A stretch of 55,633 bases of DNA from a virus. Below are positions 1 through 8,944 of the stretch, piece by piece. Both the position numbers and the translations under genes were made by a program. Under the pieces are notes generated by a model. It ran no database searches. It worked only from the letters and a program-made list of their open reading frames with translations, and was not told the DNA's origin. Positions within the stretch are counted from its first letter, which is position 1, and the number at the start of each line of letters is the position of its first letter. Location of the stretch: positions 1 through 55,633 of IMG/VR virus record IMGVR_UViG_3300043410_000581, one strand, 5' to 3'.

Positions 1-27
1 CGTTATTCTCTTTTGCTGTATGTATCT

Positions 28-51
28 ATTATAATGCCTACCACCGACATT
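28..51 (-). promoter_or_regulatory. Left-arm promoter P1 (AATGTC-N12-TATAAT)
   Basis: Read on the minus strand, the box AATGTC (51-46) is followed after 12 bp by TATAAT (33-28). It drives a gene whose start codon lies beyond the left edge; only its leader with an AGAGAA ribosome-site candidate is present in bases 1-27. Confidence 0.8.
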
Positions 52-60
52 TTACAATAG

Positions 61-218
61 GAAAGGGGGTTTCGTAACATAATCGTAACATAAGTTCAGA
101 TCGAAGGGGGTCGGCACTTTTCCAGGGTATGGAGAAGGAGCCTTTTACCGTCATGCTCAGGACCCCTGCAGGAAAGAAAGGAATTAAGACCTGCAGGTGT
201 CTTATCCAAACATGTTGA
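61..218. other. Intergenic module E1
   Basis: Non-coding stretch downstream of the 160-aa gene. It has direct CGTAACAT repeats (75-95), GGGGGTCGGC at 106-115 and two copies of the 8-bp palindrome CCTGCAGG at 165-172 and 190-197, 25 bp apart. The GTAAC and GTCGGC elements recur in the other left-arm gaps. Confidence 0.55.
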
Positions 219-701
219 CTAGTTGTCTTCGGAAGTTACGTCCTCAACGTCATAGTCCAAGTGCCAAAGGTTCTCACCATAGGCAGAGATGTCAAGACCG
301 TCAACGCTAACGTTGTACGAAATGTCATCCAAGTCTTCGAAGATTGAGACCTCAACGCTACCAGAGAAGTTGATAGTTCCCTGAACAGAGATAGACTTAG
401 TCAGTTCAATCTCCATTGCTTCTGCGAGTTCCTTCAAGAAATCCTCGTCCACGTTGTCGTGGTTTTCAAGGATAAGGTTCTTGACGTTGCTCTTCAATGC
501 TTCGATTGCTGCTTTTGCGTTTACCCAGCGGTCTCGCATAATGTTGTGGTCAGTAATCCAACTGTCTCGCTGTCCAGTCAGGGTTTCGATTTGCTCCTTG
601 AGTTGAGCAAGTACAGGGTGATTAGGGATTACTGTTTCACCAAGTACAAGACTAGCAGGGATAGGGTCAGGTACAAGATTTCCGTTTTCGTCATAAGCCA
701 T
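219..701 (-). CDS. Hypothetical protein, 160 aa, central coiled coil
   Basis: I do not recognise a named family. The N-terminal 30 residues are proline-rich, residues about 31-75 are helical with a heptad-like pattern (LAQLKEQIETL onward), residues 80-105 are acidic-helical, and the C-terminal 50 residues look beta-rich with a conserved-looking VSVDGLDISAYGENLWHLDYD. The start at 701 is supported by GAAAGGAAAAAAT just upstream and promoter P2 at the standard distance. It is one of the larger left-arm genes and is monocistronic. Function unknown; it is presumably an early or middle host-interaction gene judging only by position. Confidence 0.8.
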   Translation of the reverse strand: MAYDENGNLVPDPIPASLVLGETVIPNHPVLAQLKEQIETLTGQRDSWITDHNIMRDRWVNAKAAIEALKSNVKNLILENHDNVDEDFLKELAEAMEIELTKSISVQGTINFSGSVEVSIFEDLDDISYNVSVDGLDISAYGENLWHLDYDVEDVTSEDN

Positions 702-731
702 TATTTTTTCCTTTCGATTGGCTGTGTTTCT

Positions 732-755
732 ATTATAAGGGATACCTACGACATT
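732..755 (-). promoter_or_regulatory. Left-arm promoter P2
   Basis: AATGTC (755-750), 12 bp, TATAAT (737-732) on the minus strand. The box touches the TAA stop of the upstream gene (757-755). Serves the 160-aa gene. Confidence 0.85.
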
Positions 756-1018
756 TATTCGATGTCGTTGGCAATGCTTTCCAGTTCCTCAATGGTCTTC
801 ACCAGTTCAGCCTGAGCGTCTTCGGTGAGGGTAAGGCAAACAGTTCCAGAAACTGCCTGAGCAGAGATAGCCATAGCAAACTGAGCAAGGGCAGAGAGAA
901 ACTCGTCGCTGTCCACCTCGGTTCGCATAGCGTCAAGACCACCAGCCATCATAGCCACAAAGGGGTTGTCGCAAGCCTCGGTAGCAACCTGCTTCATTCC
1001 AAATGCGATGTCCAACAT
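755..1018 (-). CDS. Hypothetical protein, 87 aa
   Basis: An alanine-rich helical protein beginning MLDIAFGMKQVATEA and ending in an acidic helix (AELVKTIEELESIANDIE). The reading frame stays open upstream to 1069, but that extension is the translated promoter P3 and ribosome site. ATG at 1018 is chosen because GAAAGGAAAAT ends a few bases before it. The stop codon touches the -30 box of the next promoter. No family recognised. Confidence 0.8.
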   Translation of the reverse strand: MLDIAFGMKQVATEACDNPFVAMMAGGLDAMRTEVDSDEFLSALAQFAMAISAQAVSGTVCLTLTEDAQAELVKTIEELESIANDIE

Positions 1019-1046
1019 AATTTTCCTTTCGTTTGTTGATAGTTCT

Positions 1047-1070
1047 ATTATACAGGTGACCACTGACATT
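1047..1070 (-). promoter_or_regulatory. Left-arm promoter P3
   Basis: AATGTC (1070-1065), 12 bp, TATAAT (1052-1047), minus strand; serves the 87-aa gene. Confidence 0.85.
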
Positions 1071-1085
1071 ATAGGGATTTGTGGA

Positions 1086-1147
1086 GCGTTTCGTAAGCTT
1101 CGTAACCTGATCGTTACATTTGGGGGTCGGCTCCCCGAAGGGAGCAG
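1086..1147. other. Intergenic module E2 with GAGC hairpin
   Basis: Contains the inverted repeat GTAAC-N6-GTTAC near 1100-1120, GGGGGTCGGC (1122-1131) and a 6-bp hairpin GCTCCC-CGAA-GGGAGC at 1130-1145. Read on the minus strand the loop is UUCG closed by C-G, an unusually stable tetraloop. It directly follows the stop of the next gene and is a likely terminator, though it lacks a U tract. Confidence 0.6.
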
Positions 1148-1148
1148 G

Positions 1149-1640
1149 TTACCCTACTACCCCTGGGTCTAGTGTGGTTGCCCATTCCGCAAGGTATTCA
1201 TCAGGGCTAGGCAAATCATCTAAATCGTGTTCAAGAGTGTATCCGCCATAAGTAGAGATAAACTTTTTGGTTTGAAAGTTGAGGGTGTAAACTGCTTCAC
1301 AAAACAATTCGTCATTCTCAAAGTCGCTGGCATCAACTAGGAATAAATCGTTACTATAAGCAACATAGCCTAGAATGTCCGCACAGGTATCACGAGATAG
1401 AGTTGGATAAACTTCACTAACAGGCTGTTCACTAGCGGCTAGTAGTGAGTTGATGTTATCAATCTCTTTATCAGTTAGAAAGTATAGTTTAGGCAACTTA
1501 CTCTCAATAAGTCTGTGGTTCTCTGCGTGGTAGAGAGCAGTAACTCCCTGTCCGCTAGGGTATCCGTCCCATTGTCCGTATTGAGCAACCTTGACTACGC
1601 CATCTCGGTCAATTACCTTGGTTAGATTACGAGTTCCCAT
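1149..1640 (-). CDS. Conserved phage protein with MGTRNLT N-terminus, 163 aa
   Basis: The N-terminus MGTRNLTKVIDRDGVVKVAQ followed by YGQWDGYPSGQG matches a conserved uncharacterised family found in many phages of unrelated hosts; its biochemical role is not known to me. The C-terminal half carries FQTKKFISTYGGYTLEHDLDDLPSPDEYLAEWA. The start at 1640 follows a GAAAGGAAACACTA ribosome site and promoter P4. It is monocistronic and is followed at once by the E2 hairpin. Family match is from memory; a database search would settle it. Confidence 0.85.
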   Translation of the reverse strand: MGTRNLTKVIDRDGVVKVAQYGQWDGYPSGQGVTALYHAENHRLIESKLPKLYFLTDKEIDNINSLLAASEQPVSEVYPTLSRDTCADILGYVAYSNDLFLVDASDFENDELFCEAVYTLNFQTKKFISTYGGYTLEHDLDDLPSPDEYLAEWATTLDPGVVG

Positions 1641-1666
1641 TAGTGTTTCCTTTCGTTGATAGTCTA

Positions 1667-1690
1667 ATTATACTGGTAGGGTCAGACATT
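1667..1690 (-). promoter_or_regulatory. Left-arm promoter P4
   Basis: AATGTC (1690-1685), 12 bp, TATAAT (1672-1667), minus strand; serves the MGTRNLT gene. It begins one base past the stop of the 56-aa gene upstream. Confidence 0.85.
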
Positions 1691-1861
1691 TTACTCTACC
1701 GAAACTTCTAGCCATTCCCAAACATCACCATTGATAATGTCTTCATTAGCCATTTGTTTAGCATAGTCAATCATTTCATCTTCAGTCATGTCTTCAAACA
1801 ATTCTGCGTGGTCTTCTTCAGGGTAGTATTCAAATCTAAGACTAACAGTAATCTTTTCCAT
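1691..1861 (-). CDS. Hypothetical acidic protein, 56 aa
   Basis: Begins MEKITVSLRFEYYPEEDHAE and ends WEWLEVSVE. Third gene of a three-gene unit: its ATG overlaps the TAA of the 70-aa gene by one base (TAATG), so translation is probably coupled. Strongly acidic (many E and D), no cysteines, no membrane segment. A small acidic protein could be an inhibitor or a DNA mimic, but nothing in the sequence proves that. No family recognised. Confidence 0.75.
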   Translation of the reverse strand: MEKITVSLRFEYYPEEDHAELFEDMTEDEMIDYAKQMANEDIINGDVWEWLEVSVE

Positions 1862-2073
1862 TACTCATACTCACTTTCGATTTCGTTTACAAAGTCATCA
1901 TCACCATCAAGGATAGCGATAGCGTATTCCATCTTCATTGAATCTGGCAGGGAATCAAGGATATCCCATTGCTTATTGGTCAGGGCATCAGTATCAAAAG
2001 TAATGGTATCCTCACAGGCAGAGAACGAACCATCACCAGAGATGTAAGCCTTACGGCTGTGGAAATCATACAT
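1861..2073 (-). CDS. Hypothetical acidic protein, 70 aa
   Basis: Begins MYDFHSRKAYISGDGSFSAC and continues with an acidic helical half (NKQWDILDSLPDSMKMEYAIAILDGDDDFVNEIESEYE). Middle gene of the unit 2174-1691, joined by TAATG overlaps on both sides. The NKQWDILDSLPDSMK stretch looks like a small helical protein-binding motif. Function unknown. Confidence 0.78.
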   Translation of the reverse strand: MYDFHSRKAYISGDGSFSACEDTITFDTDALTNKQWDILDSLPDSMKMEYAIAILDGDDDFVNEIESEYE

Positions 2074-2174
2074 TAGTATCCTGCTTTCTCAAAAATGTCT
2101 AGTAGTTCATCTAGGGTTGATTCTGGTAGGGTGTCCAGAACATCTTGGTCAATGACATCAGCAAAGAGTTTCAT
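2073..2174 (-). CDS. Hypothetical microprotein, 33 aa
   Basis: Sequence begins MKLFADVIDQDVLDTLPEST and ends LLDIFEKAGY. First gene of the three-gene unit; it follows promoter P5 and a GAAAGGAAAACA ribosome site and its TAA overlaps the next ATG. The short length is supported by the perfect promoter, ribosome site and coupling signals. Predicted to be one or two acidic helices; function unknown. Confidence 0.72.
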   Translation of the reverse strand: MKLFADVIDQDVLDTLPESTLDELLDIFEKAGY

Positions 2175-2198
2175 TGTTTTCCTTTCGTTTATAGTTCC

Positions 2199-2222
2199 AT
2201 TATACATTAGGGGTCTGACATT
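2199..2222 (-). promoter_or_regulatory. Left-arm promoter P5
   Basis: AATGTC (2222-2217), 12 bp, TATAAT (2204-2199), minus strand; heads the 33-70-56 aa gene unit. Confidence 0.85.
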
Positions 2223-2225
2223 ATA

Positions 2226-2300
2226 GGGATTTGGGAAAGGTTTTTTAATATCGTAACCTGGTAGGCAGCTGGTGGGGTCGGCACCCCGAAGGGGTAGCCA
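2226..2300. other. Intergenic module E3
   Basis: GATTTGGGAAA, then ATCGTAACC (2250-2258), GGGGTCGGC (2274-2282) and a 5-bp hairpin ACCCC-GAA-GGGGT (2283-2295) just after the stop region of the GP88-like gene. Same order of parts as in E1, E2 and E4; probable terminator plus upstream regulatory sequence. Confidence 0.55.
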
Positions 2301-2305
2301 AAGGG

Positions 2306-3022
2306 CTACTTTTTACTAGCAGAGAACAGAATGTCATTCCTAGCAAAAACACACTGTGAGCAAGTAACGCAAGCACTACCCTTTTCAGTAATCATAGCAA
2401 TCTTGCGATTGTTTTCAGGGCAAGGGACAGCAGACTTTTCCTGTTGCTCGTTGAAGTCTGCCTTACCAGTAGCAAAATCCTTAGCAAGATAAGCAAGTTT
2501 TACGCCATAGATACGCTTCAATTCCCAAGCAAGAACCTTGTTAGCAGAATCAGCAGAGAAATACAGAGCAAGGTTAGGAATGTTTACCAAGATAGGCACA
2601 GCAAAGTCTGAACGAGTGTATGCCCAGAATTGAACATCAGGGTTTAGACGGATAACAAATGCCCAAGCCCTAGCATAGTCCTCACTAAAGAAGTCGCCAT
2701 CCCAGTGGATACGGAATAACTTTTCCGCATTACGCTTTTCGCAATCTGCCTTGAAGTCTTGAATCATCTCGTCAATCAGAGCAATCATTCCGAGAGTATC
2801 AGTAGCCAGTAGTTGCTCATAGTTGCTAACCAATACTTGACGAACACCCTTGAACACCTTTTCAAGTTTTCCAGCATAGCAGATAGTCTCACAGACAGAG
2901 GTAGCCCCAGGGCAGGAATAAGCCTTACCACTAGGCAAGCCAAAAGTGTTAGCGATAGAGGCTTGAGTGCCAGCCTTGTTTACAGCGTTAGCAACTTTAC
3001 GGTCTTTAGAGCGAGTGAGCAT
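2306..3022 (-). CDS. GP88-like cysteine-rich protein, 238 aa
   Basis: The N-terminal region has SLPSGK-type spacing followed by YSCPGATSVCETICYAGKLE (cysteines within residues about 36-48), and the C-terminus has CPENN and CVTCSQCVF, giving seven clustered cysteines that could bind a metal or Fe-S centre. This resembles the Gene product 88 (GP88) family of mycobacteriophages, a family without an established function. The central part (RIHWDGDFFSEDYARAWA) is well conserved in such proteins as I recall them. ATG at 3022 (MLTRSKDRK) is chosen; the open frame to 3082 is only promoter P6 and leader. Largest gene of the left arm; monocistronic. Confidence 0.75.
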   Translation of the reverse strand: MLTRSKDRKVANAVNKAGTQASIANTFGLPSGKAYSCPGATSVCETICYAGKLEKVFKGVRQVLVSNYEQLLATDTLGMIALIDEMIQDFKADCEKRNAEKLFRIHWDGDFFSEDYARAWAFVIRLNPDVQFWAYTRSDFAVPILVNIPNLALYFSADSANKVLAWELKRIYGVKLAYLAKDFATGKADFNEQQEKSAVPCPENNRKIAMITEKGSACVTCSQCVFARNDILFSASKK

Positions 3023-3047
3023 TTGGTTTCCTTTTCTTGATAATACA

Positions 3048-3071
3048 ATTATACACCTGACCACTGACATT
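3048..3071 (-). promoter_or_regulatory. Left-arm promoter P6
   Basis: AATGTC (3071-3066), 12 bp, TATAAT (3053-3048), minus strand; serves the GP88-like gene. Confidence 0.85.
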
Positions 3072-3091
3072 TTAGGGAACATCTTAAACGT

Positions 3092-3138
3092 GTCGTAAGT
3101 CGATCTTGCAGCTAGGGGGTCGGCTCCCCCTGTGGGGG
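3092..3138. other. Intergenic module E4
   Basis: Contains GTCGTAAGTCGATCTTGCAG, then GGGGGTCGGC and a hairpin CCCCC-TGT-GGGGG (3126-3138) that directly follows the stop of the 40-aa gene at 3143. Probable terminator without a U tract. Confidence 0.55.
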
Positions 3139-3142
3139 TAGA

Positions 3143-3265
3143 CTAGAGGAAGTCTATGATGTCACCATCAAATCTAGCGTCATCAAGATAGTCTTGCAAC
3201 TCAAGATAACTAATCTCTCCCTTGGCTGCTTGGTCAAACAATTCTTGGATGTATGCTTCGTCCAT
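3143..3265 (-). CDS. Hypothetical acidic microprotein, 40 aa
   Basis: Begins MDEAYIQELFDQAAKGEISY and ends DDARFDGDIIDFL. Its ATG overlaps the TGA of the 123-aa gene by one base (TGATG), so it is probably made by translational coupling from promoter P7. Helical and acidic; no family recognised. Confidence 0.72.
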   Translation of the reverse strand: MDEAYIQELFDQAAKGEISYLELQDYLDDARFDGDIIDFL

Positions 3266-3636
3266 CAGTCTTCCTCTTCCTCTAGAATTTCAAAGGTGAA
3301 CAACGCACCCATTTCGTCATGTGAACGGCGAACGACATTGAAAGTATTTTCTTCAGGGTCAAAGTCAAACTCAAGGCTGAAGTCACCATTCAAGACTAAC
3401 TTGTCAAGGATAGTTGCTGGAGTTGCCATTGCGTATCCTGAAACATGGTTCCAATTCATGTTGGTTCCGTTTATCTTGATAGGCTGAGTGTCATCAACAT
3501 TGTTCTTGGTCTGCCATTCACCAATTAGCCATGACACATCTTCTTTCTGCCATTCCCAGCAGTCGCCATAGCAGTTGAGTTCAACGCCATCTTCATCTTC
3601 TCCGCAAACACAGTTGCTTTCAATAATTGCTTTCAT
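3265..3636 (-). CDS. Hypothetical protein, 123 aa, N-terminal cysteine cluster
   Basis: Residues 1-27 contain four cysteines (CVC at 9-11, CYGDC at 22-26), a possible zinc site; the rest contains a tryptophan-rich helix (WEWQKEDVSWLIGEWQTKN) and a beta-rich acidic C-terminus. Start at 3636 follows GGAAAGGAAAACC and promoter P7. First gene of a two-gene unit. No family recognised. Confidence 0.8.
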   Translation of the reverse strand: MKAIIESNCVCGEDEDGVELNCYGDCWEWQKEDVSWLIGEWQTKNNVDDTQPIKINGTNMNWNHVSGYAMATPATILDKLVLNGDFSLEFDFDPEENTFNVVRRSHDEMGALFTFEILEEEED

Positions 3637-3658
3637 GGTTTTCCTTTCCTAGGGTTCA

Positions 3659-3682
3659 ATTATACAGGCAGGGTATGACATT
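3659..3682 (-). promoter_or_regulatory. Left-arm promoter P7
   Basis: AATGTC (3682-3677), 12 bp, TATAAT (3664-3659), minus strand. The box overlaps the stop codon (3683-3681) of the upstream basic gene. Confidence 0.85.
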
Positions 3683-3851
3683 ATAGGGATTCGTTGATAG
3701 CCTTGCGAATGTTGGCAGACCTAGTGCCTTTTCGGTGTTCAGGAACAACGATAGTGTGCTTGGTGAGCAATAGGTTTTTGAACAACTCAGCAGAGTGAGC
3801 CTTGCGAGTAGCCTCAGCAAGTTTGTTTAGTGGTTTCTTTCTTTTCTTCAT
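3681..3851 (-). CDS. Hypothetical basic protein, 56 aa, leaderless
   Basis: Begins MKKRKKPLNKLAEATRKAHS; lysine/arginine-rich, with a second basic patch (PEHRKGTRSANIRK), so nucleic-acid binding is plausible. Unlike its neighbours it has no GAAAGGAAA ribosome site: ATG at 3851 sits 6 bp after the -10 of promoter P8, so the mRNA is probably leaderless. An ATG further upstream (3869) lies across the promoter itself and is rejected. Confidence 0.7.
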   Translation of the reverse strand: MKKRKKPLNKLAEATRKAHSAELFKNLLLTKHTIVVPEHRKGTRSANIRKAINESL

Positions 3852-3857
3852 AGTCCT

Positions 3858-3881
3858 ATTATACATCAACCCTCCGACATT
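3858..3881 (-). promoter_or_regulatory. Left-arm promoter P8 (leaderless type)
   Basis: AATGTC (3881-3876), 12 bp, TATAAT (3863-3858), minus strand; only 6 bp separate the -10 from the ATG at 3851. Confidence 0.82.
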
Positions 3882-3884
3882 TAA

Positions 3885-3960
3885 CAGGGTTTTGGGAAAT
3901 ATTTTTTAAGGTTTTTAATGTCGATCTTGCCGAGAGCCGCCGACCCCCGAAGGGGGCTGA
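3885..3960. other. Intergenic module E5
   Basis: GGTTTTGGGAAAT, GTCGATCTTGCCG and a hairpin CCCCC-GAA-GGGGG at 3944-3956. The GCCGAC core is in the opposite orientation to E1-E4. The hairpin immediately follows the stop of the 38-aa gene at 3961. Confidence 0.5.
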
Positions 3961-4077
3961 TTAGCCTACTGACTTTGCTACTCGCTCAACCTGTTCTGGT
4001 GTTGCGATAGCAAAGAAAGCCTTAGCAAGAGTTTCGTAGTCAGCGATTTCCTCAAGTTTGCCAAATGAGATTTCCAT
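3961..4077 (-). CDS. Hypothetical microprotein, 38 aa
   Basis: Begins MEISFGKLEEIADYETLAKA and ends IATPEQVERVAKSVG. It lies 11 bp downstream of the 60-aa gene, and its ribosome site (GAAAGGAACACA) overlaps that gene's stop codon, so both are read from P9. Helical; function unknown. Confidence 0.7.
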   Translation of the reverse strand: MEISFGKLEEIADYETLAKAFFAIATPEQVERVAKSVG

Positions 4078-4088
4078 TGTGTTCCTTT

Positions 4089-4271
4089 CTAGGCGAAGCG
4101 TGGGTCAAGCAGGTCTGGGCGGAAGTGGGACAGCAGGGTGGCGTAGTCGCTAATCTGTTTCATACGAGGGTCAACCTCATCATCCTCAGTAGAGGCACGA
4201 CCACCTTTCAGGACAGCCTCCATCTCGTCCATTAGGCGAGAGCATTCAACTGACATTGCTTCGAAGTCCAT
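4089..4271 (-). CDS. Hypothetical acidic protein, 60 aa
   Basis: Begins MDFEAMSVECSRLMDEMEAV. Start at 4271 is set by GAAAGGAAACCCA and promoter P9; the open frame continuing to 4319 is the promoter. Residues 20-35 include a GGRASTEDDEVDP linker, then a helical C-terminus with RPDLLDPRFA. First gene of a two-gene unit with the 38-aa gene. No family recognised. Confidence 0.75.
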   Translation of the reverse strand: MDFEAMSVECSRLMDEMEAVLKGGRASTEDDEVDPRMKQISDYATLLSHFRPDLLDPRFA

Positions 4272-4296
4272 TGGGTTTCCTTTCGTTGATAAGACT

Positions 4297-4320
4297 ATTA
4301 TACAACGAGCCACTGACATT
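4297..4320 (-). promoter_or_regulatory. Left-arm promoter P9
   Basis: AATGTC (4320-4315), 12 bp, TATAAT (4302-4297), minus strand; serves the 60- and 38-aa genes. Confidence 0.85.
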
Positions 4321-4326
4321 TTACAA

Positions 4327-4438
4327 GAGGATTTGGGGAAAATCGGGATCTTTTTTAATGCTTTCGTAACTAGATCCAGAGCTGGGCGGTCGGCTCCCTG
4401 TGGATAACTTGGGGGGTAGCTGTGGATAACTACCCCCC
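4327..4438. repeat. Intergenic module E6 with paired DnaA boxes
   Basis: GATTTGGGGAAAATCG, TTTCGTAACTAGATCC and GGTCGGCTCC precede two perfect DnaA boxes (TGTGGATAA on plus, TTATCCACA on minus) at 4399-4407 and 4421-4429, 22 bp apart. The second box fills the loop of a 9-bp hairpin, GGGGGGTAG (4411-4419) with CTACCCCCC (4430-4438). The hairpin follows the stop of the 75-aa gene. Confidence 0.8.
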
Positions 4439-4451
4439 CTCACCATACCTG

Positions 4452-4679
4452 TTAGGCTACTACATACTTAGTAGCAACCTCACTAGGGCGAGCAATGACC
4501 TGCGACCATTCCTCTGGCTTTCCGTCCTCAAGACGAACAGCGTAGCCAACATAGGCTTCGTTAGGCTGGATACCCTGACCAAGACGAGCCTTGATACCAA
4601 CAGGGGCATCAACCTGCTCAACAACCTTGCCAACATACTTGTTGTCGTGGGTCTTGATAGTCATTCCGATAAGGTTCAT
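4452..4679 (-). CDS. Hypothetical protein, 75 aa, small beta-barrel-like
   Basis: Begins MNLIGMTIKTHDNKYVGKVV and has alternating hydrophobic strands (VGYAVRLEDGKPEEWSQVIARPSEV), resembling a small beta-barrel such as an SH3-like or PRC-barrel-like fold; this is an impression from pattern only. Start at 4679 follows AAAGAAAAGAGAAATAA and the degenerate promoter P10. Downstream is the hairpin and DnaA-box pair. Function unknown. Confidence 0.75.
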   Translation of the reverse strand: MNLIGMTIKTHDNKYVGKVVEQVDAPVGIKARLGQGIQPNEAYVGYAVRLEDGKPEEWSQVIARPSEVATKYVVA

Positions 4680-4694
4680 TTATTTCTCTTTTCT

Positions 4695-4718
4695 TTATTA
4701 GGGGTTGATACTGACTTA
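4695..4718 (-). promoter_or_regulatory. Left-arm promoter P10 (degenerate)
   Basis: TAAGTC (4718-4713), 12 bp, TAATAA (4700-4695), minus strand. Weaker match to both boxes but the same spacing; serves the 75-aa gene. Confidence 0.55.
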
Positions 4719-4859
4719 TTTGCTAGGGGTTTTATTTGCTCTTGCGAGGCTCACACCTGCTAGGCTCATTCAGTATCTCTGTTTTGTTTATATTTATATT
4801 TTACAGGCTAGTTAGTGATTTGTCAAGGCGACACGCCGTAGTTTCCAAAACTTTTTTAT
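4719..4859. other. Intergenic stretch with TACGGCGTGTC repeat
   Basis: 141 bp without a credible gene. It contains the repeat GACACGCCGTA (4830-4840), also found at 5237-5247 and 7987-7997, and an AT-rich tail. A 17-codon frame near 4717-4769 has no ribosome site. Confidence 0.5.
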
Positions 4860-5003
4860 TTATTTTTGGTGTTCTTCAGTAAAGGTGAAGTATCCCTCAC
4901 GCTTGCTAGGGACTTTGTGAAAACGCTTAAGCTTTCCATACAGATTAGGGGCAAGCACACCAAGACCATTACACTCTGGACAAGGGGTTAGATTATCAAA
5001 CAT
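4860..5003 (-). CDS. Small zinc-finger-like protein, 47 aa
   Basis: Begins MFDNLTPCPECNGLGVLAPN: the CPECNGLG segment is a DnaJ-type CxxCxGxG half-site. Only one such pair is present, so a zinc site would need a second molecule or histidines (HKVP, EEHQK). The rest is basic (YGKLKRFHKVPSKREG). Start at 5003 is set by AAAAGGAAAGAA and P11; the longer open frame to 5051 is the promoter. Function unknown. Confidence 0.75.
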   Translation of the reverse strand: MFDNLTPCPECNGLGVLAPNLYGKLKRFHKVPSKREGYFTFTEEHQK

Positions 5004-5028
5004 TTCTTTCCTTTTCTTTTCTAAGTCT

Positions 5029-5052
5029 ATTATAGCGTGACCCTCTGACATT
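5029..5052 (-). promoter_or_regulatory. Left-arm promoter P11
   Basis: AATGTC (5052-5047), 12 bp, TATAAT (5034-5029), minus strand. The box touches the stop of the upstream 40-aa gene. Confidence 0.85.
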
Positions 5053-5174
5053 TAACCTTTGACTTTTGCGTCTGGGTGGTCTTTGAGAAACTTTGTCAAG
5101 TCAAGAATGTGGATTGCCGAAACAACCTTAGAGCCGTTTTCTAGTGAGTATTCGAATAGGGTGTACTTGCTCAT
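5052..5174 (-). CDS. Hypothetical protein, 40 aa (duplicate pair A)
   Basis: Begins MSKYTLFEYSLENGSKVVSA and continues IHILDLTKFLKDHPDAKVKG. It is a clear paralogue of the 39-aa gene at 5765-5884 (about 30 of 39 positions identical), with four genes of other families between them. Start at 5174 follows AAAAGGAAAACACAA and P12. Predicted as two strands and a helix ending in HPDAKVK. Function unknown. Confidence 0.8.
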   Translation of the reverse strand: MSKYTLFEYSLENGSKVVSAIHILDLTKFLKDHPDAKVKG

Positions 5175-5204
5175 TTGTGTTTTCCTTTTCTTCTTTATGT
5201 ATTC

Positions 5205-5228
5205 ATTATAGCAAGGGGGTACGACATT
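5205..5228 (-). promoter_or_regulatory. Left-arm promoter P12
   Basis: AATGTC (5228-5223), 12 bp, TATAAT (5210-5205), minus strand; serves the 40-aa gene of pair A. Module E7 with a LexA box lies just upstream. Confidence 0.85.
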
Positions 5229-5236
5229 TTAGGTAC

Positions 5237-5347
5237 GACACGCCGTAAATCTGGAAAGTTTTTTCTTATCGTAACCAATTTGTTATAATCGAACATTTGT
5301 TCGAAAACGCCGACCCCTGTGGATAACTTTCGATCAGCTGTGGATAA
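5237..5347. repeat. Intergenic module E7: LexA box and paired DnaA boxes
   Basis: Order on plus: GACACGCCGTA repeat (5237-5247), TCGTAACC, plus-strand TGTTATAAT (5281-5289), a perfect LexA/SOS palindrome TCGAACATTTGTTCGA (5289-5304), GCCGACCCC (5309-5317), DnaA boxes TGTGGATAA at 5318-5326 and 5339-5347, 21 bp apart. The second DnaA box directly abuts the stop codon of the 41-aa gene. Confidence 0.85.
5289..5304. promoter_or_regulatory. LexA (SOS) box 1
   Basis: TCGAACATTTGTTCGA is a perfect match to the actinobacterial/Gram-positive LexA consensus TCGAAC-N4-GTTCGA. It abuts a plus-strand extended -10 (TGTTATAAT, 5281-5289) and lies about 60 bp upstream of minus-strand promoter P12. Binding by host LexA is inferred from the sequence only. 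Confidence 0.8.
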
Positions 5348-5473
5348 CTAGAAGGGTATGTTATCTCGCTCTGCCTGGCGGTATCCAATTCCCTTAGCAA
5401 CTTTATAAGTAGTAAAAACAAGAATGATGTCCACAAGCAAGTTGAAGCCATTGTAGAAAATAATTTCGTTCAT
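5348..5473 (-). CDS. Small membrane protein, 41 aa
   Basis: Begins MNEIIFYNGFNLLVDIILVF with one predicted membrane helix at residues 10-25, then a basic/polar tail (KVAKGIGYRQAERDNIPF). Third gene of the unit 5714-5348; its ATG overlaps the TAA of the zinc-ribbon gene by one base. The stop is directly followed by a DnaA box. Function unknown. Confidence 0.75.
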   Translation of the reverse strand: MNEIIFYNGFNLLVDIILVFTTYKVAKGIGYRQAERDNIPF

Positions 5474-5625
5474 TAGTTAGTCTCCTTTAGGTATTCCAAA
5501 AAGTCATAGGTTTCACTTGCTTCGGTTAGGGTCATTAGTCCCTTATAGTCCTGGCATTCAGGGCATACCATTACGCTAGGGTTGTAGATGTTTTCACAAA
5601 ATACACAAACTCGTTCTTCGTTCAT
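5473..5625 (-). CDS. Small zinc-ribbon protein, 50 aa
   Basis: Begins MNEERVCVFCENIYNPSVMV and continues CPECQDYKGLMTL: two CxxC pairs (C7/C10 and C21/C24) separated by ten residues, a typical rubredoxin-knuckle zinc ribbon. The C-terminal half is an acidic helix. Coupled by TAATG overlaps to the genes on both sides. A protein- or nucleic-acid-binding adaptor is plausible. Confidence 0.8.
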   Translation of the reverse strand: MNEERVCVFCENIYNPSVMVCPECQDYKGLMTLTEASETYDFLEYLKETN

Positions 5626-5714
5626 TATTTACCTTCCTTCTTTTCGGCTTCCAATTTGATGGCGTTCTCACGAACAATTTGAGCCATCATTGCTTTTAGT
5701 TGCTTTTCGTTCAT
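5625..5714 (-). CDS. Hypothetical microprotein, 29 aa
   Basis: Begins MNEKQLKAMMAQIVRENAIK and ends LEAEKKEGK; a single charged amphipathic helix. First gene of a three-gene unit, preceded by AAAAGGAAAATCAA and promoter P13, and its TAA overlaps the next ATG. The signals support it as real despite the length. Confidence 0.7.
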   Translation of the reverse strand: MNEKQLKAMMAQIVRENAIKLEAEKKEGK

Positions 5715-5740
5715 TTGATTTTCCTTTTCTATCTAAGATT

Positions 5741-5764
5741 AGTTTAGCACTACCCTACGACATT
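5741..5764 (-). promoter_or_regulatory. Left-arm promoter P13 (TGC-TAAACT type)
   Basis: AATGTC (5764-5759), 12 bp ending in TGC, then TAAACT (5746-5741), minus strand. The weak -10 hexamer is preceded by an extended -10 TGC. Confidence 0.82.
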
Positions 5765-5884
5765 TTACTGCTTGACTTTTGCGTCAGGGTGTTCACGAAG
5801 AAACTTGCCAAGGTCAAGAATGTGAATGGCAGAAACAACCTGCTTGCCATTGAAGTCGTATTCGAATAGTGTATATTTGCTCAT
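5765..5884 (-). CDS. Hypothetical protein, 39 aa (duplicate pair A)
   Basis: Begins MSKYTLFEYDFNGKQVVSAI and continues HILDLGKFLREHPDAKVKQ; paralogue of the 40-aa gene at 5052-5174. It has its own promoter P14 and AAAAGGAAAATCAA ribosome site. The two copies share protein sequence better than flanking DNA, so the duplication is not recent. Function unknown. Confidence 0.8.
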   Translation of the reverse strand: MSKYTLFEYDFNGKQVVSAIHILDLGKFLREHPDAKVKQ

Positions 5885-5910
5885 TTGATTTTCCTTTTCT
5901 TTATAAATCT

Positions 5911-5934
5911 AGTTTAGCATAGGGGTCAGACATT
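5911..5934 (-). promoter_or_regulatory. Left-arm promoter P14 (TGC-TAAACT type)
   Basis: AATGTC (5934-5929), 12 bp ending in TGC, TAAACT (5916-5911), minus strand. Confidence 0.82.
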
Positions 5935-6060
5935 TTAGCAAGTGTGAGTTGCTATTGCCTGTTCCAATTCAGCGATAGTTTTGCCCATCTCAAACTTTCC
6001 ACAAGTCTCGCAATCGGTTGACTCATAGAATCTGTCGTTCCAGTGGTTTGTGACTTTCAT
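5935..6060 (-). CDS. Hypothetical protein, 41 aa, CxxC motif
   Basis: Begins MKVTNHWNDRFYESTDCETC and ends AIATHTC. Cysteines at 17 and 20 plus HTC at the C-terminus could form a C2HC zinc site. Start at 6060 follows GAAAGGAAAAAG. The upstream region offers both AATGTA-N12-TATAGA (P15) and a TTGACA-like hexamer. Function unknown. Confidence 0.75.
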   Translation of the reverse strand: MKVTNHWNDRFYESTDCETCGKFEMGKTIAELEQAIATHTC

Positions 6061-6074
6061 CTTTTTCCTTTCTA

Positions 6075-6098
6075 TCTATAACTATCTAATCATACATT
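6075..6098 (-). promoter_or_regulatory. Left-arm promoter P15 (variant)
   Basis: AATGTA (6098-6093), 12 bp, TATAGA (6080-6075), minus strand. A TTGACA lies just upstream and could pair with TTAGAT at 17 bp instead, so the exact promoter is ambiguous. Confidence 0.5.
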
Positions 6099-6120
6099 AT
6101 TGGGTTTGTCAATAGCAAAA

Positions 6121-6223
6121 CACCTTTTGTTACCATTTCGTTATAATTGGGGATCGATCTTGTGCTACGTAAATCGAACAAATGTTCGAAGGGGTCGGCT
6201 CCTGTGGATAACTCTGTGGATAA
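6121..6223. repeat. Intergenic module E8: LexA box and paired DnaA boxes
   Basis: Order on plus: TTGTTACC, TTATAATTGG, GGATCGATCTTG, LexA palindrome TCGAACAAATGTTCGA (6174-6189), GGGGTCGGCTCC, DnaA boxes TGTGGATAA at 6203-6211 and 6215-6223, 12 bp apart. Same parts as E7 with the GTCGGC core inverted. The region lies between the 41-aa and 40-aa genes and has no credible gene. Confidence 0.85.
6174..6189. promoter_or_regulatory. LexA (SOS) box 2
   Basis: TCGAACAAATGTTCGA is again a perfect TCGAAC-N4-GTTCGA palindrome. A plus-strand TATAAT lies 26 bp to its left (6142-6147); minus-strand promoter P15 lies about 75 bp to its left. Confidence 0.8.
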
Positions 6224-6247
6224 GTCAGAGTCGATCCGCCAGGGTAG

Positions 6248-6370
6248 TTACTTAGCCAACTTTTTACTAAGGGCAAGCAATTCCTCAAATTCAGTCATAG
6301 ACATAAACTCATCTCCCTTAGCAATTCGCATAAGTTCGTTGTATCGAATTTTCATTTCGTTCTTGCTCAT
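6248..6370 (-). CDS. Hypothetical protein, 40 aa (duplicate pair B)
   Basis: Begins MSKNEMKIRYNELMRIAKGD and continues EFMSMTEFEELLALSKKLAK. Paralogue of the 40-aa gene at 7433-7555 (33 of 40 positions identical). Two predicted helices. Preceded by AAAGGAAAATAAA and promoter P16. Function unknown. Confidence 0.8.
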   Translation of the reverse strand: MSKNEMKIRYNELMRIAKGDEFMSMTEFEELLALSKKLAK

Positions 6371-6381
6371 TTTATTTTCCT

Positions 6382-6435
6382 TTACTGATTAGCCAGAATG
6401 ATTACTAAGATTATGATACCAAAGACCACAGACAT
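6382..6435 (-). CDS. Possible hydrophobic micro-ORF, 17 aa
   Basis: A frame encoding MSVVFGIIILVIILANQ starts directly after the TAA of the 66-aa gene (GAATAAATG) and ends just before the ribosome site of the 40-aa gene. AGGAA lies upstream at a usable distance. However, its ATG is the ATG of promoter box P16, so it may be an accident. A similar tiny membrane frame occurs at 7239-7295. Confidence 0.2.
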   Translation of the reverse strand: MSVVFGIIILVIILANQ

Positions 6436-6436
6436 T
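6413..6436 (-). promoter_or_regulatory. Left-arm promoter P16
   Basis: AATGTC (6436-6431), 12 bp, TATCAT (6418-6413), minus strand; serves the 40-aa gene of pair B. Confidence 0.7.
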
Positions 6437-6636
6437 TATTCCTGCTCATTTCCCCAAAGGCGAACAATGAGAACAACGGAAAAGATGATGAAGCCAAATC
6501 CACCAATTAGGAACGGAAACATTCCAAGACCCTCAAGACCAGTCTTGCCAATTTCATCAAGACCAGACTTAGCAATGAAGAAGAAGATGGTGGCGAGGGT
6601 AGTGATGATGATGTTACGCTTGATAGTTACAGACAT
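6436..6636 (-). CDS. Membrane protein, 66 aa, two helices
   Basis: Begins MSVTIKRNIIITTLATIFFF. Two membrane helices are predicted, at residues about 8-21 and 41-58, the second followed by RLWGNEQE. Start at 6636 follows AAAAGGAAAATCTA and promoter P17; the long open frame to 6840 is read-through of the neighbouring gene's antisense. Two-helix topology and size would fit a holin, but nothing else supports that and no lysin gene is nearby. Confidence 0.75.
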   Translation of the reverse strand: MSVTIKRNIIITTLATIFFFIAKSGLDEIGKTGLEGLGMFPFLIGGFGFIIFSVVLIVRLWGNEQE

Positions 6637-6664
6637 TAGATTTTCCTTTTCTTTTGATAGTTTG

Positions 6665-6688
6665 ATTTTAGCAGATACCACTGACATT
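6665..6688 (-). promoter_or_regulatory. Left-arm promoter P17 (TGC-TAAAAT type)
   Basis: AATGTC (6688-6683), 12 bp ending in TGC, TAAAAT (6670-6665), minus strand. Confidence 0.8.
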
Positions 6689-6898
6689 TTAGGCAGACAT
6701 TCCAAGTTCTGCCCTAGTCTTTTCACCATTCCAAAGTTGAGCAACGAATACGCCAACCTGTTCATCAGTGTATTCAGTCTGGCTAGCAAGCAGGGTAGCG
6801 TAGTATTCTTCATCACGCTTGATAGCAGAAGCGTCATCACTGAATGGGGCAGTCCAAGTGTCTAGTTTTGCTTCGATTAGTTTTGGTAGAATGTTCAT
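6689..6898 (-). CDS. Hypothetical protein, 69 aa
   Basis: Begins MNILPKLIEAKLDTWTAPFS; a mostly helical, acidic protein with EYTDEQVGVFVAQLWNGEKT near the C-terminus, resembling an EF-hand-free helix-loop-helix. Start at 6898 follows AAAAGGAAAACAAA and promoter P18. Its stop is one base before the P17 box. No family recognised. Confidence 0.8.
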   Translation of the reverse strand: MNILPKLIEAKLDTWTAPFSDDASAIKRDEEYYATLLASQTEYTDEQVGVFVAQLWNGEKTRAELGMSA

Positions 6899-6924
6899 TT
6901 TGTTTTCCTTTTCTCTATACCTAT

Positions 6925-6948
6925 ATTATAAGCACAGCCTAAGACATT
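6925..6948 (-). promoter_or_regulatory. Left-arm promoter P18 (with TTGACA)
   Basis: AATGTC (6948-6943), 12 bp, TATAAT (6930-6925), minus strand. Uniquely, TTGACA lies immediately upstream of the box, 18 bp from the -10, so this site also fits a canonical sigma70 promoter. Confidence 0.82.
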
Positions 6949-6967
6949 TGTCAAGTATATTTAGAAA

Positions 6968-7061
6968 AATAATTATAACGAATTTGGGGAAAATCGTTAT
7001 CAAACTTAACTTGACAAAAGCTTGAAAAGGTGCCGACCCCTGTGGATAAGTCTGTGGATAA
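6968..7061. repeat. Intergenic module E9 with paired DnaA boxes
   Basis: Order on plus: ATTATAACG, AATTTGGGGAAAATCGTTAT, GCCGACCCC (7032-7040), DnaA boxes TGTGGATAA at 7041-7049 and 7053-7061, 12 bp apart. The last box abuts the stop codon of the 35-aa gene, exactly as in E7. No LexA box here. Confidence 0.8.
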
Positions 7062-7169
7062 CTACTTACCCCATTCCTTTATCATCTCAACCTGGAGACC
7101 TAGCAATTCTTCTGCAGACATTGTCTCAATATCTTTAGAACCATTAGCCGAAATAATTTGAATTCCCAT
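7062..7169 (-). CDS. Hypothetical microprotein, 35 aa
   Basis: Begins MGIQIISANGSKDIETMSAE and ends LLGLQVEMIKEWGK. Start at 7169 follows GAAAGGTAATAAA and promoter P19; stop is followed by a DnaA box. Predicted strand plus helix. Function unknown. Confidence 0.7.
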   Translation of the reverse strand: MGIQIISANGSKDIETMSAEELLGLQVEMIKEWGK

Positions 7170-7193
7170 TTTATTACCTTTCGTTATATAAGT

Positions 7194-7217
7194 ACTTTAG
7201 CATTACCCTCTGACAGT
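7194..7217 (-). promoter_or_regulatory. Left-arm promoter P19 (variant)
   Basis: ACTGTC (7217-7212), 12 bp ending in TGC, TAAAGT (7199-7194), minus strand. Confidence 0.65.
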
Positions 7218-7238
7218 GGAGGGTATCGATCGGGGTAG

Positions 7239-7295
7239 TTATTGGATAAACATCCAAACAGCCAACAGACAAAACATTACAGCAACAACCTCCAT
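7239..7295 (-). CDS. Possible membrane microprotein, 18 aa
   Basis: MEVVAVMFCLLAVWMFIQ is a single hydrophobic helix. Its ATG overlaps the TAA of the 45-aa gene by one base (TAATG), the coupling arrangement used throughout this arm, and the frame fills an otherwise empty gap. No independent ribosome site. Single-helix peptides of this size are known to regulate membrane proteins, but the call rests on coupling and hydrophobicity only. Confidence 0.4.
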   Translation of the reverse strand: MEVVAVMFCLLAVWMFIQ

Positions 7296-7432
7296 TAGAA
7301 CACCAGTCCCCAACCCATGATTAGACCCTTTTCATAGAGACCTTTGTAGAAATTACGAACAGCGTCTTTATGCTCAGGGTCAAAAGAATAGTCAATTTGC
7401 TTACCGTCTAGAGTGATGATTTCAATAGTCAT
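7295..7432 (-). CDS. Hypothetical protein, 45 aa
   Basis: Begins MTIEIITLDGKQIDYSFDPE and ends YEKGLIMGWGLVF. Its ATG directly follows the TAA of the upstream pair-B gene (TAAATG), so both belong to one unit from promoter P20. Predicted two strands and a helix. Function unknown. Confidence 0.72.
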   Translation of the reverse strand: MTIEIITLDGKQIDYSFDPEHKDAVRNFYKGLYEKGLIMGWGLVF

Positions 7433-7555
7433 TTACTTACCCAACTTCTTTGATAGTGCCAATAGTTCTTCGAACTCGGTCATGCTCATGTAGTCATCGC
7501 CCTTAGCGATACGCATTAGTTCGTTATAGCGAGACTTCATTTCTAGAGTAGTCAT
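7433..7555 (-). CDS. Hypothetical protein, 40 aa (duplicate pair B)
   Basis: Begins MTTLEMKSRYNELMRIAKGD and continues DYMSMTEFEELLALSKKLGK; 33 of 40 residues match the gene at 6248-6370. Differences sit at the N-terminus. Follows AAAAGGAAAACA and promoter P20. Function unknown; retention of two copies with separate promoters suggests a dose or timing difference. Confidence 0.8.
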   Translation of the reverse strand: MTTLEMKSRYNELMRIAKGDDYMSMTEFEELLALSKKLGK

Positions 7556-7579
7556 TGTTTTCCTTTTCTTTATATGATT

Positions 7580-7603
7580 AGTTTAGCATGGGGGTATGAC
7601 ATT
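7580..7603 (-). promoter_or_regulatory. Left-arm promoter P20 (TGC-TAAACT type)
   Basis: AATGTC (7603-7598), 12 bp ending in TGC, TAAACT (7585-7580), minus strand. Confidence 0.82.
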
Positions 7604-7606
7604 GAA

Positions 7607-7780
7607 CTACATCTTAGCGTAGCCAATGCTGTATCCGTATTTCCATCCTGCTATTGAGGGGTGGCTAACAATAGCCTTTACCTCTGCCTCAGTAGTAGCA
7701 GAGAACTTGTGAACAGAGAACGAAACACCATCCTCACGAGAGCCTCGCTTGGTGATGATTACTGTGTTGAATTCGAACAT
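7607..7780 (-). CDS. Hypothetical protein, 57 aa
   Basis: Begins MFEFNTVIITKRGSREDGVS and ends HPSIAGWKYGYSIGYAKM. Mixed alpha/beta pattern (strand, strand, helix AEVKAIVSHP, strand). Start at 7780 follows GAAAGGAAAAATAA and P21. No family recognised. Confidence 0.75.
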   Translation of the reverse strand: MFEFNTVIITKRGSREDGVSFSVHKFSATTEAEVKAIVSHPSIAGWKYGYSIGYAKM

Positions 7781-7805
7781 TTATTTTTCCTTTCTTTATG
7801 TATTT

Positions 7806-7829
7806 AGTTTAGCACTAGGGGCAGACATT
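7806..7829 (-). promoter_or_regulatory. Left-arm promoter P21 (TGC-TAAACT type)
   Basis: AATGTC (7829-7824), 12 bp ending in TGC, TAAACT (7811-7806), minus strand. Confidence 0.82.
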
Positions 7830-7831
7830 TA

Positions 7832-7924
7832 TTACTTTTTTAGCAACTTAGCAATGTCAGTGCTAAAGTTTGCCCACACTACTACTACTACTGATACTAC
7901 TACAATTACTACTACTTCAAACAT
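7832..7924 (-). CDS. Valine-run membrane microprotein, 30 aa
   Basis: Begins MFEVVVIVVVSVVVVVWANF and ends STDIAKLLKK: a membrane helix made almost only of valine, encoded largely by repeated GTA codons (trinucleotide tract in 7878-7919), with a basic tail. Start at 7924 follows AAAAGGAAAAGAAA and P22. The promoter, ribosome site and basic tail argue that it is a gene and not just a microsatellite. Confidence 0.65.
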   Translation of the reverse strand: MFEVVVIVVVSVVVVVWANFSTDIAKLLKK

Positions 7925-7951
7925 TTTCTTTTCCTTTTCCTTTATGTATCT

Positions 7952-7975
7952 ATTATAAGCACAAGGGCAGACATT
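7952..7975 (-). promoter_or_regulatory. Left-arm promoter P22
   Basis: AATGTC (7975-7970), 12 bp, TATAAT (7957-7952), minus strand; last promoter of the array, serving the valine-rich microprotein. Confidence 0.85.
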
Positions 7976-8123
7976 ACGCAAGTCAAGACACGCCGTATTT
8001 GATAACAAATTGATAACGTTAGGGGGTGTGTAGTGTCCGCACTATTTATTTGGTTTTGTTGTTTTAAATGTACGCATCGTACATCTATTCAAAATATTCA
8101 GATTTTGTCAAACTCAAATTTTT
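7976..8123. other. Intergenic stretch E10
   Basis: 148 bp without a gene. It holds GACACGCCGTA (7987-7997), the direct repeat TTGATAAC, a TAGTG/CACTA hairpin (8031-8044) and the inverted repeat TGTACG-CAT-CGTACA (8069-8083). On the minus strand the last one is followed by TTTAAAA and could end the DUF3307 operon transcript. Confidence 0.5.
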
Positions 8124-8459
8124 TCAGATTTTTGCCAGGTACAAAATTAACAAATATGTCAACGCATGAAGAAGCTGATCTGCACCAAAGTAAATCCAAT
8201 ACATACGATCTGCCTGTGTGAGATTCTTTGATAGCTTTGTCTTGATGTAATCCACATTGTGATGAATAGCAAAATCTAAGCAAGCGAGGGTAGCTGCAAG
8301 AGACAAAGGCATAAACCACATAAGAACAGTAAGGGTAAATACCATATGAATAAGAGAATGGTCTAGATAAAGGTATTTTTGCTTATGTTTAGCCATATAG
8401 TTTGTCTGAAATACAAAATCTGCGAGGTAATGCTTAACAAAAAGTAACATTAACATCAT
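8124..8459 (-). CDS. DUF3307-like integral membrane protein, 111 aa
   Basis: Features of the DUF3307 family are visible: an N-terminal helix with HYLADFVFQTNYMAKHK, then DHSLIHMVFTL, a middle helix with DFAIHHNVDYIKTKL, and YFGADQLLHALTYLLILYLA near the end. Three to four membrane helices carry conserved histidines and aspartates (H29/H33-like, HHNVDYIK, DQLLH). DUF3307 has no established function. It is the last of four genes read from the promoter near 8916-8944; its ATG overlaps the upstream TGA by four bases (ATGA). It shows an AT-richer composition than the array genes. Confidence 0.82.
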   Translation of the reverse strand: MMLMLLFVKHYLADFVFQTNYMAKHKQKYLYLDHSLIHMVFTLTVLMWFMPLSLAATLACLDFAIHHNVDYIKTKLSKNLTQADRMYWIYFGADQLLHALTYLLILYLAKI

Positions 8460-8593
8460 TTTTCATCCTTACTGTCCATCTGCTCTTTGATCAGCTTCTC
8501 CGTCTGCTTCTTGACCTTAGCTCTAGGATTAGCCATAAGCACACAGCACTTACAAAACTGCTTTTCTAGGTGGGTAACACCAAATTGTTTCAT
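8456..8593 (-). CDS. Hypothetical basic protein, 45 aa, CxCC motif
   Basis: Begins MKQFGVTHLEKQFCKCCVLM, with FCKCC near residues 13-17, then a lysine-rich amphipathic helix (PRAKVKKQTEKLIKEQMDSK). ATG at 8593 is preferred over 8596 because of AGGAGAATG spacing and because its A overlaps the upstream TGA. Cytoplasmic; possibly metal-binding. Function unknown. Confidence 0.68.
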   Translation of the reverse strand: MKQFGVTHLEKQFCKCCVLMANPRAKVKKQTEKLIKEQMDSKDEK

Positions 8594-8691
8594 CATTCTC
8601 CTAGTAAATATTTGACGGTAGCCATAAAAATAGCCATAAATGTTGGAATAGCAACAACAGCAAGCAATAAAACAACTATTTTACGGACCAT
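8593..8691 (-). CDS. Single-helix membrane protein, 32 aa
   Basis: Begins MVRKIVVLLLAVVAIPTFMA and ends IFMATVKYLLGE. One or two short hydrophobic helices with a proline break. Start at 8691 overlaps the upstream gene by 11 bp; its TGA overlaps the next ATG. Function unknown; small membrane proteins dominate this operon. Confidence 0.68.
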   Translation of the reverse strand: MVRKIVVLLLAVVAIPTFMAIFMATVKYLLGE

Positions 8692-8893: not shown

Positions 8894-8915
8894 GTCTCTC
8901 CTATGGTAGGTTTTA

Positions 8916-8944
8916 AGTATAGCATAAAATTTTGGGGTACACAA
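8916..8944 (-). promoter_or_regulatory. Sigma70-like promoter of the membrane-protein operon
   Basis: On the minus strand: TTGTGT (8944-8939), 17 bp, TATACT (8921-8916), with TGC before the -10. It differs from the AATGTC promoters and is paired with an AGGAGAG ribosome site, so this operon is probably controlled separately. Confidence 0.65.

Follow-up and report, generated by a model that had tools for sequence, protein, structure and literature searches.

A box at a fixed distance from the −10 element marks predicted promoters of small-gene arrays in relatives of Streptomyces phages

The viral DNA analysed here (the window) is a stretch of 55,633 nt from the IMG/VR database that represents a partial genome; all positions refer to the whole stretch. 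Between positions 28 and 7975, its minus strand carries an array of small genes, most of which are headed by promoters, predicted from sequence, that have a TGTC-containing box exactly 12 bp from a σ70-type −10 element. Across relatives, the core of the box is TGTC-N-G-W-(GG/CC)-Y, 10 bp at −28 to −19, and several hundred aligned sites define a promoter class of one fixed geometry that extends from uncultured viruses to cultured Streptomyces phages. The array is probably a set of factor-dependent promoters serving a block of small host-takeover genes early in infection. The data suggest that viruses related to Streptomyces phages switch on dozens of small genes via a shared, undescribed promoter signal placed at one exact distance, with a protein steering the host transcription machine. 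Little has been described of how large virulent actinophages regulate their genes, and no earlier description of the box promoter was found in the open-access literature, subscription journals being outside the reach of that search.

Geometry of the box promoters

Thirteen exact copies of AATGTC-N12-TATAAT were found, all of them on the minus strand and within 28–7975; the rest of the window has none, and the reversed pattern, used as a control, has no exact match anywhere in the window. With up to two mismatches allowed, 27 matches were found in the window versus 8.5 ± 2.7 in shuffled sequences. The original prediction had listed 22 promoters with a 12-bp spacer, 19 of them with an exact AATGTC and 13 with an exact TATAAT. 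A pattern search reproduced the spacer and the latter two numbers, while the total is 20 promoters with TGTC at 12 bp from the −10, i.e., the 19 with AATGTC and one with ACTGTC. The remaining two are a box-less canonical promoter (4826–4798) of gene 4452–4679 and a promoter of gene 5935–6060 (6112–6089) in which GACA stands at the TGTC position. The claim that every unit is headed by the box is thus slightly too strong, but holds for most units. The predicted promoters are as follows:

28–51, minus strand: box promoter AATGTC-N12-TATAAT, found by pattern search; its gene leaves the contig
732–755, minus strand: box promoter; +1 at 725, start codon at 701, open reading frame of 160 amino acids
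1047–1070, minus strand: box promoter; +1 at 1040, start codon at 1018
1667–1690, minus strand: box promoter; +1 at 1660, start codon at 1640
2199–2222, minus strand: box promoter; +1 at 2192, start codon at 2174
3048–3071, minus strand: box promoter of a GP88-family gene; start codon at 3022
3659–3682, minus strand: box promoter; start codon at 3636
3858–3881, minus strand: box promoter; predicted +1 is the ATG at 3851
4297–4320, minus strand: box promoter; start codon at 4271
4798–4826, minus strand: box-less canonical promoter TTGACA-N17-TAAAAT; long leader before 4679
5029–5052, minus strand: box promoter; start codon at 5003
5205–5228, minus strand: box promoter; start codon at 5174
5741–5764, minus strand: box promoter, −10 TGC TAAACT; start codon at 5714
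5911–5934, minus strand: box promoter, TGC TAAACT; start codon at 5884
6089–6112, minus strand: ambiguous promoter TTGACA-N12-TATGAT of gene 5935–6060, found by sequence inspection
6413–6436, minus strand: box promoter, TGG TATCAT; start codon at 6370
6665–6688, minus strand: box promoter, TGC TAAAAT; start codon at 6636
6925–6948, minus strand: box promoter that also has TTGACA-N18-TATAAT (TTGACA at 6954–6949); start codon at 6898
7194–7217, minus strand: variant box promoter ACTGTC-N12-TAAAGT; start codon at 7169
7580–7603, minus strand: box promoter, TGC TAAACT; start codon at 7555
7806–7829, minus strand: box promoter, TGC TAAACT; start codon at 7780
7952–7975, minus strand: box promoter, outermost of the array; start codon at 7924

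An A is found at the predicted +1, seven bases past the −10, in 18 of the 19 AATGTC sites of the window. In 17 of the 20 box promoters a start codon, preceded by a AAAGGAAA-type ribosome-binding site, lies 16–24 nt past the predicted +1; this does not apply to three promoters, namely 28–51 at the contig edge, 3858–3881, whose +1 coincides with the ATG, and 6413–6436 (36 nt). The leader of the box-less promoter at 4826–4798 is ca. 110 nt long (4680–4795).

The window box extends beyond AATGTC, as [T/A]A-AATGTC-N-[G/T]-[A/T/C]-(GG or CC)-.... At −21/−20, each of the 19 AATGTC sites has either GG or CC, unmixed. The consensus of 567 distinct sites is aaaTGTCaGtGGt, reaching −19, then (TGn)TAtAaT and an A at +1; it is asymmetric and has no dyad. 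The search pattern that produced this set itself demanded TGTC, G/T at −23 and S-S at −21/−20, but not the bases at −31 to −29, −24, −22 and −19, TGn or +1. In the set of one whole-contig count, positions −21/−20 across relatives were GG in 87 sites, CC in 54, GC in 10 and CG in 0. GG occurs in the context GTGGT, CC in the context GACCC, which may reflect either two modes of recognition or a readout of DNA shape.

In 78 array fragments, the box and the −10 are separated by 12 bp in 599 pairs, with one pair each at 10, 11, 13 and 14 bp. A count over whole contigs gave 153 pairs at 12 bp versus 0 at 8, 11, 13 and 14 bp, and the reversed-box control was flat. Chance as the origin of the array was rejected, based on the shuffled sequences, the reversed-pattern control and the flat offsets of the reversed box. 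The motif search proposed in the original prediction also recovered the box: unseeded de novo discovery found it in the window and in the relative contigs G016, G010 and G014, and a position weight matrix built from the window recovered it in relatives. Unseeded discovery over whole genomes missed it in several contigs, where ribosome-binding sites dominate. In the Streptomyces phages Jay2Jay, MindFlayer and Coruscant, TGTC stands at exactly 12 bp in 10 cases, versus 0.46 expected per offset, while the TTG −35 of these phages is at either 17 or 18 bp. Since TGTC is fixed and the −35 varies, the box is tied to the −10 and not to the −35. We conclude that the motif, its spacing and its conservation are established as properties of these sequences.

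No shared −35 element accompanies the box: over the 567 distinct sites, none of the positions from −48 to −32 exceeds 0.11 bit. A scan of window positions 1–10500 for canonical −35/−10 pairs gave 32, versus 25.4 ± 5.8 expected, which is chance level; canonical σ70 promoters were therefore rejected as the identity of most sites. The relation between box and −35 was analysed in promoters anchored only on the gene start, the −10 and the A at +1. Near-identical upstream sequences were removed, because box-less promoters of the form TTTACA-N17-TATAAT largely belong to one orthologous gene (27 copies). In this set, a −35 matching at least 5/6 positions was present in 23 of 65 box-less promoters (35%) versus 15 of 148 box promoters (10%), a ca. 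four-fold difference (p = 2.6e-5), and looser thresholds gave p values of 2.5e-7 to 1.6e-6. When sites were dereplicated at 60% on the motif itself, a procedure by which box promoters come to resemble one another, the trade-off was not significant (p = 0.12). As a near-consensus −35 is more frequent in box-less promoters, the box probably substitutes for this element. It is probably a positive element, too, because a repressor operator would not replace a −35.

Imperfect −10 elements were preceded by TGn in 62 of 81 cases, versus 9 of 44 for TATAAT (p = 1.4e-9), and an A was found at +1 in 116 of 125 sites. The compensation of weak −10 elements by TGn points to a σA-type (σ70-type) holoenzyme. 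Thus, the box promoters have a TATAAT-type −10, TGn compensation and an A at +1, all ordinary σA features; the feature mostly missing is a TTGACA-like −35 at 16–18 bp, present in ca. 10% of them. The trade-off and the compensation are, like the motif and its spacing, established at the sequence level, and together with the spacing they support what had been proposed from the window, i.e., one geometry with a box in place of the −35 and a σ70-type −10.

Carrier phages and spread of the box

Protein similarity and gene order place the window as a partial, low-GC relative of the Stanwilliamsviridae, a family of Streptomyces phages. Its portal protein is ca. 50% and its DnaB helicase ca. 39% identical to those of Streptomyces phages of this family and relatives, and the gene order is common to both: a leftward small-gene block is followed by rightward genes of head and tail, helicase, primase and single-stranded DNA-binding protein. 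Array-gene orthologues (GP88, DUF932 and others) are common to the window's relatives and Jay2Jay. The leftward block of Jay2Jay lies inside an exact terminal repeat of 11,438 bp; by analogy with takeover modules in terminal repeats, this location of the syntenic array suggests that the array genes are early. Actinobacteria are suggested as hosts by the WhiB gene of relatives and by the kinship with Streptomyces phages, and a low-GC lineage by the low GC content; scans of bacterial genomes with the MerR-like and WhiB proteins described below, meant to identify the host, gave no match.

Among the first 15 relative contigs, the box was present in those with array genes. Contigs G027, G021 and G032, considered as relatives lacking the box, were rejected as such, the array genes themselves being absent from them; Jay2Jay was likewise rejected as box-lacking, since TGTC-N12 is enriched both there and in two further genera. 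The pattern TGTCNGTGGTNNNNNGTATAAT, a longer form of the box, was used for a blind scan of 2.9 million IMG/VR viral contigs, which found at least 80 loci. Among the matches listed, at least 64 loci had three or more sites, and 63 of the listed 64 encode array proteins of the Stanwilliamsviridae-related family, while none of the 12 single-site loci listed had array-protein homologues. The sites are confined to one block per genome, e.g., all 18 in the window and all 23 in G016. The sites stem from contigs of a single family and are thus not independent observations, but the main tests either used dereplicated sets or had large margins. The proposal of one regulon of about 30 small genes is upheld by these data. 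It had been put forward as a possibly undescribed phage regulon; no description of it was found in the open-access literature searched, and it extends beyond one phage to the whole family, with the Streptomyces relatives combining the box with a −35. The box can serve as a sequence signature for recognising this virus family in raw metagenomes.

Several other elements were observed in the arrays. Two pairs of small array genes in the window are paralogous (5052–5174 and 5765–5884; 6248–6370 and 7433–7555), which suggests growth by duplication. Eight perfect DnaA boxes (TTATCCACA) lie on the minus strand as four pairs in array gaps (4399–4429, 5318–5347, 6203–6223 and 7041–7061) and nowhere else in the window, where 0.67 would be expected. 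They are also enriched in the arrays of G016 (12 versus 2 elsewhere) and G014 (8 versus 1), but not in G010 or Jay2Jay. Two palindromes, CGAACNNNNGTTCG, that resemble the actinobacterial LexA (SOS) box are found in the array gaps at 5290–5303 and 6175–6188 (0.04 expected) and are absent in the relatives checked. A repeated element, ACGGCGTGTCG/GACACGCCGT, stands near several array promoters in many relatives (in the window, e.g., 5232–5242 and 7984–7994), with copies in Jay2Jay, too. In 27 array fragments (e.g., L250, L252, L255, L258 and L264), the box-less TTTACA-N17-TATAAT promoter is predicted to drive an orthologous protein of 48–50 amino acids. This protein resembles the Lsr2 DNA-binding domain (Pfam E-values of 0.006–0.09, below the cut-off) and an Lsr2-like array protein of Streptomyces phages, and may be an immediate-early anti-silencer. 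Outside the array, the C-terminal part of the open reading frame at 50842–51429 appears HNH endonuclease-like by eye; no homologues of it were found in relatives, beyond a short overlap with another frame.

Candidate readers of the box and rival explanations

Sigma factor region 2 (PF04542) was found in none of 18 large records, and region 4 (PF04545) had no match above the family cut-off in 23 records, with two weak matches below it in one record. On these grounds a phage-encoded sigma factor was rejected, the window being only part of a genome. The MotCF profile (PF09158) had no match in 18 records; control genomes gave no match either. One gene of the window encodes a candidate reader:

48696–49226, plus strand: conserved protein with a MerR-like winged-helix DNA-binding domain; candidate box-binding factor, unproven

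This protein is 68–84% identical in 11 relatives and 23% identical in Jay2Jay, where it is gp77. Its predicted structure has a mean predicted local distance difference test score (pLDDT) of 62, with about 70–85 in most of residues 21–100 and 111–120; the best fold matches of the model are DNA-binding domains of the MerR family (probability up to 0.98, E about 0.1, over a 60-residue domain only). Each of the 12 aquatic records that reach 80 kb carries a WhiB gene, as does Jay2Jay, and mycobacterial WhiB7 activates transcription by binding region 4 of σA (PMC3905903). That the MerR-like protein, the conserved WhiB protein or both take part at the box is only a guess. The former had been singled out in the original prediction; its model does show a MerR-like fold and the protein is conserved, but nothing ties either protein to the box.

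We consider it somewhat probable, and the best explanation of the data, that host RNA polymerase with its primary sigma factor is helped by a box-bound activator in a fixed geometry, the activator being phage-encoded or delivered with the virion. The polymerase would read the (extended) −10 and the initiator; the −35 contact would be mostly missing, its place being taken over by the 10-bp box; and a sequence-specific activator would bind the box and touch the polymerase in one fixed geometry. A protein as the reader, its activating role and its origin from the phage, which most likely encodes or delivers it, are all inferences; the dependence of the array promoters on a phage protein, raised in the original prediction, is likewise an expectation. 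Several points weigh against this explanation. No factor has been linked to the box, and promoter function itself is a prediction from the DNA. Box and −35 occur together in a minority of promoters, and usually do so in Streptomyces phages; replacement by the box is thus not universal. The main difficulty is timing: if the array is the first DNA to enter, as the Jay2Jay terminal repeat suggests, any phage protein synthesised after infection would miss the first round of transcription, unless the activator enters with the virion or comes from the few box-less promoters with a −35, which exist (e.g., 4826–4798 in the window).

It is unlikely, though well worth weighing, that the host holoenzyme itself, or a constitutive host partner (e.g., RbpA or CarD), recognises the box, the array then consisting of very strong early promoters that have an unusual spacer element and involve no phage factor. 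The syntenic array in the Jay2Jay repeat is where early genes are expected, the −10/TGn compensation is that of an ordinary holoenzyme, and T4 early promoters use host polymerase yet show extra consensus beyond −35, TGn and −10 (PMC2988021). However, the box is read more strictly than the −10, and among the blind-scan matches listed, all from viral contigs, multi-site loci belong almost only to this phage family. A sequence-specific polymerase contact at −28 to −19 is also not known for σA holoenzymes, which counts against a direct reading by the host enzyme.

The box could also be an operator, with a phage repressor in the spacer silencing the early block at a later stage or in a carrier state; cluster A mycobacteriophages, with their many asymmetric operators, provide the model. 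In line with this, a large number of identical asymmetric sites are distributed over all promoters of a single gene block, at the place where a repressor would block polymerase, but a repressor needs neither the exact 12-bp spacing (599 pairs versus 4 at 10, 11, 13 and 14 bp) nor the trade-off, as an operator would not make up for a missing −35, and we regard this as quite unlikely. The constancy could, finally, reflect ancestry, the array having grown by duplication of one promoter cassette, with the box and spacing as functionless relics. Some array genes are indeed paralogous (the two pairs given above), but the box, the spacing and the +1 have been retained in strongly diverged contigs and in three genera of Streptomyces phages, in contrast to the remaining spacer positions, which are randomised, and this makes such an origin very improbable.

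Activation by a phage factor can be imagined more specifically, as a possible but rather doubtful scheme: an independently evolved appropriation of sigma in a whole family of actinobacterial phages, in which a phage DNA-binding protein (possibly the MerR-like one), perhaps with phage WhiB on region 4 of σA, redirects host RNA polymerase to the −35-replacing box (−28 to −19) and switches on the whole takeover block at once. Since the promoter class is conserved into cultured Streptomyces phages, the mechanism is now testable in Streptomyces lividans with Jay2Jay. A confirmed factor would provide a second, unrelated solution to the task performed by MotA/AsiA in T4, and might point to a function of the WhiB genes, which are very frequent in actinophages.

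Comparison with known systems

One close likeness is to the array promoters of the Streptomyces Stanwilliamsviridae Jay2Jay, MindFlayer and Coruscant, which have a syntenic leftward small-gene array and, in a subset, TGTC exactly 12 bp from an extended −10; they differ in keeping the TTG −35 and in a weaker TGTC element. Many small genes, many promoters, a location in a terminal repeat (in Jay2Jay) and extra consensus beyond the core are shared with T4 early promoters and with the terminal-repeat takeover modules of the SPO1/T5 type, but T4 early promoters have an excellent −35, which is mostly absent here. With the WhiB7-type σA/WhiB promoters of Actinobacteria, the box promoters share a WhiB gene in relatives and the precedent of WhiB7 bound to region 4 of σA (PMC3905903). 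The AT-rich motif that WhiB7 promoters have upstream of the −35 is not seen (at most 0.11 bit at −48 to −36), nor is a −35, and the box lies downstream of the −35 position. In MerR-activated promoters, too, the regulator site lies between the −35 and −10 positions, and a conserved MerR-like winged-helix protein is encoded here; MerR promoters, however, have a dyad and a −35/−10 spacing of 19–20 bp, whereas here the box is asymmetric and there is no −35 signal at any position.

The parallel drawn in the original prediction was with T4 middle promoters (MotA + AsiA), in which MotA boxes of the consensus (a/t)(a/t)(a/t)TGCTTtA replace the −35 at 12 ± 1 bp from the −10 (PMC2988021). The parallel holds for the layout: in both cases a phage box replaces the −35 ca. 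12 bp upstream of a σ70 −10, the −10 is extended in about half of the promoters, and many promoters form one temporal class. It does not hold for the box itself, which is TGTC-N-GWSSY reaching −19 rather than WWWTGCTTtA and failed a test against the MotA-box sequence. The spacing is stricter (exactly 12 bp versus 12 ± 1), imperfect −10 elements are common and compensated by TGn, and the genes form one compact block, early-looking by the Jay2Jay terminal repeat, in contrast to the dispersed middle genes of T4. The box system is therefore not classed as a MotA system; what the two have in common is their logic and layout.

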